IMG/VR virus record: IMGVR_UViG_3300050002_000025
Location: 1-34,250 of that record
Length of the DNA stretch: 34,250 nt
From: a virus
Strand: one strand, 5' to 3'
Shown here: one piece after another, positions 19,097-21,590 of the stretch
How positions within the stretch are numbered: position 1 is the first letter of the stretch
Layout of the letters: each line of letters starts with the position of its first letter
Notes under the pieces: generated by a model
The model's database searches: none
What the model saw: the letters and a program-made list of their open reading frames with translations, nothing else
Told to the model about the DNA's origin: nothing
Program-made: the position numbers and the translations under genes

Positions 19097-19309
19097 ATGG
19101 CGAAACCATCGATAGATCCACTCGATCCAGGAACAAGATTTGGTAGGTGGACATACCTGAACGAGGCTGGCACGGCCCGGTACCCATCAGGTGGCAGACA
19201 ACGACTGGTCCAAGCCCGATGCGACTGTGGGTCGACTTACACAGTTCAGCTCTGCAAATTGCGGTCTGGCGACTCGACCCAATGCCGCATCTGTGGCGGC
19301 CAGCGGTGA
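19097..19309 (+). CDS. small zinc-ribbon protein, 70 aa
   Basis: The protein has the layout of zinc-binding domains found with phage HNH and AP2-type proteins: DPGTRFGRWTYLNE, then a basic loop, RCDCGSTYTVQLCKL and a final CRICGGQR, giving a Cys-x-Cys plus Cys-x-x-Cys site. No nuclease motif remains, so it is either a stand-alone DNA-binding protein or a remnant of a larger protein. It lies just before the replication gene, which starts inside its stop (GTGA). Confidence 0.7.
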   Translation: MAKPSIDPLDPGTRFGRWTYLNEAGTARYPSGGRQRLVQARCDCGSTYTVQLCKLRSGDSTQCRICGGQR

Positions 19310-20223
19310 CCGGGAAGTGGGTTGGTTGGGCAGCCGAGCTGCCCATGGACGTGAAGAACAACGAGAGGCTCGCAGCGTTCGTCCTGGCCGACGCCTGCGA
19401 CCCCGACGGCGTCTGCATCTACGGCGTCACCAAGCTCGCCAAGCGCGGGGGTATGAGCGTACGGAGCTTCCAAGAGGCCACATCGAAGCTCGAACGCAAG
19501 GGGTGGGTCGTCAAACACCTGAACGCTGTCCGGTCGATCACGAAGAACGGGAAGACGATCCACCTCCGACCCGATCACCGTCCGAACCAGTACGTGCTGC
19601 AGTGGGACCAAGGCCCGGCCGGTCCTATCCGGCCGTCTGGCCGTGAAGCTGTGGACGATGAGAACGACCAGGCCGGACGGGGTGCAGAATCCAGTGGCAA
19701 CGGGGTGCAGAATCGCGTAGACGACGGGGTGCAGAATCCCGCACCCAATCCCCCTGTGCCTTCGGTTCCCCCTGTTAATCCCCCTGTCCCGTCGTCATCG
19801 TCTGCAACTTCACGCGCGCGCGCCGCCGAGCCCGGAGACGACGACGGAACAGAGCTGATAGTCGAAGCGCTCGAGCTCGCCGGCTACCCACGACCCACAC
19901 CCACGACCGGAGAGGCCCGCTACACAGCCGCCGCGACCGCCAGAGGGTGGACACCCCACGACATCCTCGAACGGGCCACACGAGCCAGCTCAGCCGGCGA
20001 TCCGAGGGCGTACCTCCTCCAATGCCTACGGAACCTCGCCAACACCGACCCACCGGCCCGTACCGGCCCCCCACCATCGACCCGACCCGAGACCATGTCA
20101 CCACCCACCGTCCCCCAACTAGGCCGACACGAAGGCTGGGACACACCCGAAGTCACCCGGAACGGCCTCGCAGCCGCCAGAGCAGCCCTCGGCATCCCAC
20201 CACGGAAACGAGACGTGGCATGA
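19306..20223 (+). CDS. winged-helix replication initiator-like protein, 305 aa
   Basis: Residues about 1-100 form a winged-helix domain in the pattern of phage replication starters: WAAELPMDVKNNERLAAFVL, ACDPDGVCIYGVTKLAKRGG, and SVRSFQEATSKLERKGWV. A long Pro/Ser/Gln-rich linker (about 105-185) follows, then a C-terminal helical domain (GEARYTAAATARGWTPHDIL to AYLLQCLRNLAN). The start is GTG at 19306, overlapping the preceding stop. The upstream in-frame ATG would duplicate the zinc-ribbon region out of frame. Three 15-bp iterons lie in the linker DNA, as in lambda O. It probably loads host replication machinery, since no helicase is present. Confidence 0.78.
   Translation: MTGKWVGWAAELPMDVKNNERLAAFVLADACDPDGVCIYGVTKLAKRGGMSVRSFQEATSKLERKGWVVKHLNAVRSITKNGKTIHLRPDHRPNQYVLQWDQGPAGPIRPSGREAVDDENDQAGRGAESSGNGVQNRVDDGVQNPAPNPPVPSVPPVNPPVPSSSSATSRARAAEPGDDDGTELIVEALELAGYPRPTPTTGEARYTAAATARGWTPHDILERATRASSAGDPRAYLLQCLRNLANTDPPARTGPPPSTRPETMSPPTVPQLGRHEGWDTPEVTRNGLAAARAALGIPPRKRDVA
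19677..19738 (+). repeat. three 15-bp direct repeats (candidate origin iterons) inside the initiator gene
   Basis: ACGGGGTGCAGAATC occurs perfectly at 19677-19691, 19700-19714 and 19724-19738, with periods of 23 and 24 bp. The first copy is read in a different codon phase from the other two, so the conservation is at DNA level, not protein level. Iterons within the initiator coding sequence are known from lambda ori. Confidence 0.82.
19747..19787 (+). repeat. C-rich direct repeats next to the iterons
   Basis: AATCCCCCTGT occurs at 19747-19757 and 19777-19787, with a partial copy CCCCCTGT at 19768-19775. The tract codes for Pro/Val-rich linker sequence but forms a pyrimidine-biased strand directly after the iterons, so it may belong to the origin. 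A codon-level origin from Pro repeats is an alternative. Confidence 0.55.
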
Positions 20224-20444
20224 CCCGAAATCCGAAACCAGAACCACGAGCCCGAGGCAAGAACACCCACCCCGCCGAACTCCCCTGCATCGACCCCGAA
20301 TGCAGACAAGGCCAAGGATGGATCCTCTGCCTCCGATGCGGATGCCGAGTCCAGAACGCCAGAACAGAGCACCGGCTCCGCCAACTCGACCGGAGATCAC
20401 CCCTACCCAAATCCCCGATGCAGCAATCCATCGGCGAAATCTGA
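20220..20444 (+). CDS. small Cys-rich basic protein, 74 aa
   Basis: Starts by overlapping the initiator stop (ATGA). A basic N-terminus (RNPKPEPRARGKN) is followed by CIDPEC, then WILCLRCGCR, a four- to five-Cys zinc-binding pattern, and a basic C-terminus. Probably a nucleic-acid-binding accessory of replication; no family is recognised. Confidence 0.68.
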   Translation: MTRNPKPEPRARGKNTHPAELPCIDPECRQGQGWILCLRCGCRVQNARTEHRLRQLDRRSPLPKSPMQQSIGEI

Positions 20445-20512: not shown

Positions 20513-20551
20513 TCTTACATTCGTAGTAGAAATTCCGCTACGAATGTAAGA
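20513..20551. repeat. 14-bp perfect inverted repeat with 11-bp spacer in A+T-rich DNA
   Basis: TCTTACATTCGTAG (20513-20526) and its exact reverse complement (20538-20551) flank an 11-base spacer. It lies between convergent transcripts, so it may be a bidirectional terminator, but the arms are only about 36% GC and there is no T run. The architecture also resembles recombinase or replication-protein sites. Confidence 0.7.
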
Positions 20552-20879: not shown

Positions 20880-21064
20880 AGCAGAGTTTCCCATCTCGTC
20901 CGGGGGAGCTGATGCAAGTGTGGCCCAGGATGCCCGTCCAACCGCTCACACCGAACCAACACGAACAGATCCGGCCGGTGGACCGTGGCAGCGCACATCA
21001 CCATCCCAGCCAACTCGTCAATGTCGACCTCACGCCGCCGGCGGTCAGCCACCGGCTTGCCCAT
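20876..21064 (-). CDS. small protein with CxxxxGHxGxH-like motif, 62 aa
   Basis: A basic protein starts MGKPVADRRRREVDIDELAG and ends with CERLDGHPGPHLH, one copy of the Cys-His signature also found in the proteins at 18015, 25298 and 25916. I used the ATG at 21064; a GTG nine bases inside that overlaps the upstream stop is an alternative start. Function unknown. Confidence 0.62.
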   Translation of the reverse strand: MGKPVADRRRREVDIDELAGMVMCAATVHRPDLFVLVRCERLDGHPGPHLHQLPRTRWETLL

Positions 21065-21590
21065 CAACCGCAGCGCGCCAGTCGGCCGCCCACTGAAAGT
21101 CGATGTTGAGCGCGTCGGCGCACTGCTGATCCTCTGGCCGGTCGCCGACAAACAGGGCGAGATGAGGCGGGAACGCCACACCGACCCCAGTCCGATCGCG
21201 GATCCTCCTGGCCAGATCTAACGCTGTTTCGATGGCCAGCCCTGGCCTTGGCTTCCGGCACCAGCACCGAGCCATCTCCGGGTCACTGGCATGCGGATGA
21301 TGCCTACAGAAGCCAATCCCATCGAACAAGCCGCCGGTCTGGCGTTGCGTCTCAGTCATCGCTTCGGCGACGCTGGCAATGTTGACGATCCTGAGCGCGA
21401 TGCCACCCTGGTTGGACACACCGATGATCCGGCCCCCCTTCTCCTTCCATCGGCGCATCTGCTCGACGGCCTCGGGGAACACGATCACATCTTCGGGGCC
21501 GTTGACGAATTTGCCGAGAGCGTCGTCCTTGCCTTGGCGTACGGTCCCATCGATGTCGAGCAGGAGCAATGGCACCAGTTGTGTAGTCAT
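21045..21590 (-). CDS. HAD-family phosphatase (GmhB-like, HAD-IIIA), 181 aa
   Basis: The motifs are complete: DIDGT with nucleophile Asp12 and acid Asp14, SNQGGIA (59-65), Lys113 in CRKPRPG, and VGDRPED with Asp150. Cys95, His97/98/100, Cys109 and Cys111 form the zinc site of GmhB and histidinol-phosphate phosphatases. These enzymes remove phosphate from sugars or small molecules; a related fold is the 3'-phosphatase part of polynucleotide kinases. In this phage it sits beside an exonuclease, so action on nucleotides or DNA ends is one option. Confidence 0.88.
   Translation of the reverse strand: MTTQLVPLLLLDIDGTVRQGKDDALGKFVNGPEDVIVFPEAVEQMRRWKEKGGRIIGVSNQGGIALRIVNIASVAEAMTETQRQTGGLFDGIGFCRHHPHASDPEMARCWCRKPRPGLAIETALDLARRIRDRTGVGVAFPPHLALFVGDRPEDQQCADALNIDFQWAADWRAAVDGQAGG

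Follow-up and report, generated by a model that had tools for sequence, protein, structure and literature searches.

Three direct repeats inside an O-like phage initiator gene as a probable iteron-type replication origin

Does the gene for a phage replication initiator also carry the origin at which its product acts? We studied this question on a linear 34,250-base fragment, an IMG/VR virus record (hereafter the window), in which an O-like initiator gene encoding 305 aa (19306..20223, plus strand) contains three identical direct repeats. We consider it very probable that these repeats are iterons bound by the initiator of the same gene and that they form the core of the phage replication origin, in a lambda-type intragenic arrangement. 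Comparison with homologues strongly supports an iteron origin inside the gene, and from this comparison we infer origin function and protein binding.

Three direct repeats in the linker of an O-like initiator

The gene product matched phrog_1032, 'replication initiation protein', over residues 8-181 (E 3.5e-10) and the O-like family phrog_391 (E 1.8e-6), as well as phrog_8540 and phrog_270. Its GTG start at 19306 overlaps the stop codon of an upstream gene (GTGA). This small Cys-rich gene (70 aa; 19097..19309, plus strand), which has a partial match to phrog_374 (E 5e-7), is probably translationally coupled to the initiator, as judged from the 4-bp overlap. At the other end, the initiator stop overlaps (ATGA) a second small Cys-rich gene without a family match (74 aa; 20220..20444, plus strand).

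In an AlphaFold2 model computed from 23 input sequences, residues 1-100 (19306..19605, plus strand) fold as a winged helix-turn-helix domain, presumably the iteron-binding part, with a block pLDDT of 86-97 except for 78 at residues 71-80. The winged-helix region matched HTH_36 with an E value of 0.0025, short of Pfam's cut-off. Foldseek returned weak matches to the Rep-DNA complex 5kbj and to the initiator 4pt7/4pql, the best solved structures having E values of 0.013 to 0.036, and its matches among predicted viral proteins included O-like and HTH phage proteins. The domain is followed, on the same strand, by a disordered linker that is partly encoded by the repeats (residues 108-179; 19627..19842; block pLDDT 39-57 between residues 110 and 180) and by a C-terminal helical domain (residues 180-246; 19843..20043) with four helices predicted at moderate confidence. 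Profile searches found no family match for the C-terminal domain, which presumably recruits the host replication machinery. We also observed that the E value of the phrog_8540 match went from 0.05 for the N-domain alone to 9.4e-6 for the whole initiator; this rise in score with the iteron-encoded linker indicates that DNA sites can inflate apparent protein homology.

A sequence-only reading of this locus had described three perfect 15-bp direct repeats with 23- and 24-bp periods in the linker, the first in another codon phase than the other two, and had held that protein selection could not explain their identity; all of this was borne out. The sequence ACGGGGTGCAGAATC occurs exactly three times in the window, each time perfectly and on the plus strand: candidate iteron 1 lies at 19677..19691 (codon phase 1, peptide RGAES), candidate iteron 2 at 19700..19714 (phase 0, NGVQN) and candidate iteron 3 at 19724..19738 (phase 0, DGVQN), the last being followed by a partial right arm, CCCGCACC. 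The start-to-start period is 23 and then 24 bp, copies 1 and 3 match over 17 bp (GACGGGGTGCAGAATCC), and the repeat region encodes initiator residues 124-145. The longest k-mer found three times in the initiator gene has 15 bases, compared with 5 to 10 bases in 3000 synonymous-codon shuffles, and no other 10-mer in the whole 34-kb window has three copies within 200 bp. A looser test, on 13-mers with up to 2 mismatches, gave 3 copies in the window and up to 4 in the shuffles and, unlike the exact-repeat test, did not separate the two.

Two of the three copies share a frame and encode GVQN, as would be expected if the repeats were a protein feature, namely a GVQN peptide repeated along a flexible linker, or had arisen by recent slippage duplication. 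However, copy 1 lies in another frame, and synonymous shuffles reach 10 bp at most. The spacers between the copies, CAGTGGCA and GCGTAGACG, are unrelated to each other, which speaks against recent tandem duplication as the cause of the repeat identity. Moreover, relatives cycle through all three frames and conserve synonymous codons, as described below. A peptide or slippage origin is already contradicted by these results, and we regard it as extremely improbable.

Directly after the iterons, at 19747-19791, TCCCCCTGT occurs three times with gaps of 18 and 12, all in one frame (PPV) and within a stretch of 78% pyrimidine. This triplet may be a protein or a DNA feature.

Repeats in initiators collected by protein homology

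Searches for relatives of the window initiator found none in named phages at E 1e-3, none in IMG/VR, and in plasmids one match only, with an E value of 0.9 (limit 1). The 16 loci reached through the terminase held no homologue of it, one terminase-related record carried a distant phrog_1032 protein, a RecT search led to no related loci, and the exact repeat-pair pattern of the window had no match in IMG/VR. No relative close enough for a synonymous-site test was found in the named phages, IMG/VR, the plasmids and the terminase loci.

We then collected homologous initiators by protein match alone, whatever their repeats. Searching the named phages and 299 genomes from the phylum to which locus L059 (a proteobacterium) belongs with phrog_1032 gave 71 non-redundant initiators, in which repeats were detected de novo as an 8-mer occurring at least three times within 160 bp and compared with synonymous shuffles. 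Such an 8-mer was present in 47 of the 71 initiators, against 8.5 expected after shuffling, and 43 of the 47 had copies in more than one codon phase. As a control, 17 of 107 other ORFs from the collected loci carried a thrice-repeated 8-mer, with 9.2 expected. The repeat spacing in the homologues had its main peak at 21-24 bp and a minor one at 11-12; the repeats lay mostly at about residues 90-140. Lambda O served as the positive control; its four annotated iterons were recovered with gaps of 20, 24 and 23 and phases 0, 2, 2 and 1. The window shows the pattern of the family, with repeats just after the winged helix at residues 124-145, gaps of 23 and 24, and more than one frame. Homologues thus share core, place and spacing with the window and exceed both shuffles and control genes, in agreement with the sequence-only reading of the repeats as an iteron-type origin inside the initiator gene.

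Synonymous-site conservation of the repeats, which had been proposed as a check, was found between the Arthrobacter phages RedFox, Orcanus and Kepler, the comparison being made in these relatives and not in the window. Codons for shared linker residues were identical in 18/18, 15/17 and 18/19 cases in the three comparisons, as against 50/77, 50/77 and 58/85 for shared residues of the N-domain. In these phages, synonymous sites hardly vary across the repeat region.

The sequence flanking the repeats was compared with the gene in 30-bp bins. We found no AT-rich tract next to the window iterons, the AT excess in the next two bins being 0.00 and +0.06; the same bins averaged +0.12 and +0.06 in 44 relatives and reached +0.15 and +0.18 in lambda. 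The GC skew changes near 19 kb; it tracks gene orientation and was rejected as origin evidence.

The missing AT-rich partner bears on two other explanations. The repeats could be initiator binding sites for feedback control of the gene itself, with the origin elsewhere, and sequence cannot tell binding from origin activity. However, the sites are some 370 bp into the gene and not where a promoter would be, lambda sites at the same place are annotated as ori iterons, and relatives become AT-richer immediately 3' of the repeats, as expected of an origin, making feedback control improbable in our view. The repeats could also be what is left of a decayed origin in a phage that has come to use another one. 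The features that count against an intragenic origin, namely only three copies (four or more in many relatives), the uneven 23/24 spacing and the lack of an AT-rich tract, would all fit such decay. Yet all three 15-mers are base-identical, which decay would not preserve, and we judge a degenerate origin to be very unlikely. The preferred reading is still that of iterons forming an origin core.

A recurrent iteron core

Which sequence do the homologues repeat? Among 7-mers in the 71 non-redundant homologues and named phages, with the window excluded, GGGTGCA was most often present three times (8 genes, 0.05 expected), and other top 7-mers were GGGGTGC (7 genes, 0.20 expected), ACGGGGT (5 genes, 0.00 expected), GGTGCAA, GGTGCAG, GGTGACA and GGGTGAC. 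Four of the enriched 7-mers, ACGGGGT, GGGGTGC, GGGTGCA and GGTGCAG, are contained in the window sequence ACGGGGTGCAG. The window carries the family core, GGGGTGCA or GGGGTGACA, which is a common subset and not universal. In many homologous initiators the iteron sequences differ widely, for example TGCATCCATGCAA in L062 and CCACCCCCGACTG in L093, which suggests that iteron specificity evolves with the recognition helix.

Sites of the form [A]ACGGGGTG were found in the initiators of RedFox, Orcanus, Kepler and Gordonia phage DatBoi, and the initiator of Pseudomonas phage JBD68 has the same core. These five belong to the same protein family as the window initiator and carry the core ACGGGGTG, then CA, CC or ACA, at the same gene position, but their proteins are far from that of the window (19% identity for DatBoi). 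Unlike the window, RedFox, Orcanus and Kepler have four iterons exactly 22 bp apart, with successive copies shifted by one reading frame.

Another subset of initiators, such as those of L005 and L059, carries the palindrome GTGCAGAWTCTGCAC in the linker and in several frames. Its left half, GGTGCAGAATC, is identical to the window iteron, but the window keeps the left half-site only, whereas these initiators have full palindromes. Owing to its half-sites, the window was not picked up in a test with the palindromic consensus GTGCAGAWTCTGCAC that allowed up to 4 mismatches. We also noted initiators with near-palindromic sites in several frames at L059 1238-2275 and L046 2599-3174, with linker peptides of the GADSAP-, GANSAP- or AQILH-type.

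A motif-only scan of IMG/VR for CGGGGTG occurring three times with a 20-25 bp period gave at least 120 stretches, of which 80 were fetched. The motif lay in an ORF with an initiator N-domain in 67 of these 80 loci; the loci include close relatives of each other, and the counts are of records, not of independent events. A gap of 22 bp was dominant, and all three frames were used in 52 of 61 same-strand cases. In 398 host genomes, the pattern of three CGGGGTG copies was found six times, in 4 genomes, and most of these matches were simple tandem repeats; the reversed control pattern matched 2 of the 398. Three copies of GGGTGCA gave 11 matches in 6 of these genomes, several of them in initiators, and the control gave none.

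On balance, we favour the view that the window is one of a class of intragenic phage origins that crosses phyla and shares the core CGGGGTG with CA or ACA after it. For a large part of the class, the 22-bp period would shift each copy by one frame, and the linker would be largely a translation of the protein's own binding sites. No description of the recurrent core and frame-cycling period was found in the open-licence literature searched on encoded peptides and intragenic phage iterons.

Known origins, genomic setting and meaning

Like lambda ori in gene O and the origins of Stx phages, the window has iterons between the DNA-binding and C-terminal parts, at a spacing of 20-24 bp and in several phases. 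It differs from lambda ori in iteron sequence and copy number (three compared with four to six), and it has neither an adjacent AT-rich tract nor a recognisable P gene next door. The proposed parallel with lambda ori accordingly stands for the placement inside the initiator gene, the spacing and the use of several phases, but not for the AT-rich neighbour. For lambda itself, three iterons are reported to be enough (Moore et al. 1981, as cited in PMC7466680).

The RepA_N plasmid initiators of the pSK41 type (5kbj, 4pql, 4pt7) share the winged helix and gave the best weak Foldseek matches, but the E value is only 0.013, Pfam RepA_N did not match the initiator, and the element type is different. 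RepA_N plasmid initiators have iterons inside the rep gene, and origins lie inside initiator genes in lactococcal phages and RepA_N plasmids alike; a repeat region is annotated in the putative replication gene of BK5-T. For lambdoid phages, origins inside initiator genes are established (PMC7466680). For mycobacterial prophages, Wetzel et al. suggested that the origin lies within repA or upstream of it, and they detected no repeats in the regions they examined (PMC7157519). The intragenic kind of origin is already known, and the window adds a new case with a shared core. As judged from sequence comparison, the lambda arrangement appears to be present in dozens of phages with nearly the same iteron.

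We propose that the N-terminal winged helix would bind the GGGGTGCA core of each iteron, and that a spacing of about two helical turns would align the bound monomers along the same face of the DNA. The monomers on the three sites may then assemble an O-some-like complex, the DNA near the iterons would be opened, and the C-terminal domain may recruit the host helicase, directly or via a loader. Translation of the iterons would give a disordered linker in which any encoded residues are tolerated, so that iteron copies can sit in different reading frames.

In the position of lambda's adjacent P-type helicase loader lies the 74-aa ORF described above, and no helicase-loader gene was identified in the record. 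The statement that the phage has no recognisable helicase or primase gene held for this linear fragment: no DnaB-type helicase was found in the record, and neither enzyme was found among the subset of its ORFs scanned by profile search. RecE- and RecT-like genes are present. The assignment to an actinophage is plausible from the endolysin, for which 21 of 22 matched records are phages named for Arthrobacter or Corynebacterium; the RecT and terminase matches were mixed.

Some other features of the record were observed. Directly after the initiator operon, at 20513-20551, lies a near-perfect AT-rich inverted repeat, CTTACATTCGTAG / CTACGAATGTAAG, with an 11-nt loop, which ranks among the window's least stable 50-bp stretches and had no counterpart in other phage or IMG/VR records; it is possibly a terminator, a recombination site or an unwinding element. 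A minus-strand ORF at 21045-21590 weakly resembles polynucleotide kinase 3'-phosphatase and HAD hydrolases. Nothing of use came from sigma-70 and Rfam scans.

For an uncultured phage, the repeats provide a testable origin. The lambda layout, with the origin inside the initiator gene, appears common among O-like initiators in phages of several bacterial phyla, and similarity between the linkers of such initiators can stem from DNA sites and not from protein function, which is a warning for protein comparisons. One recurrent DNA core, often read in all three frames, would help to locate phage origins in metagenomes. If the proposed class is real, origin, iteron and binding domain would be predictable from sequence alone for many uncultured phages.
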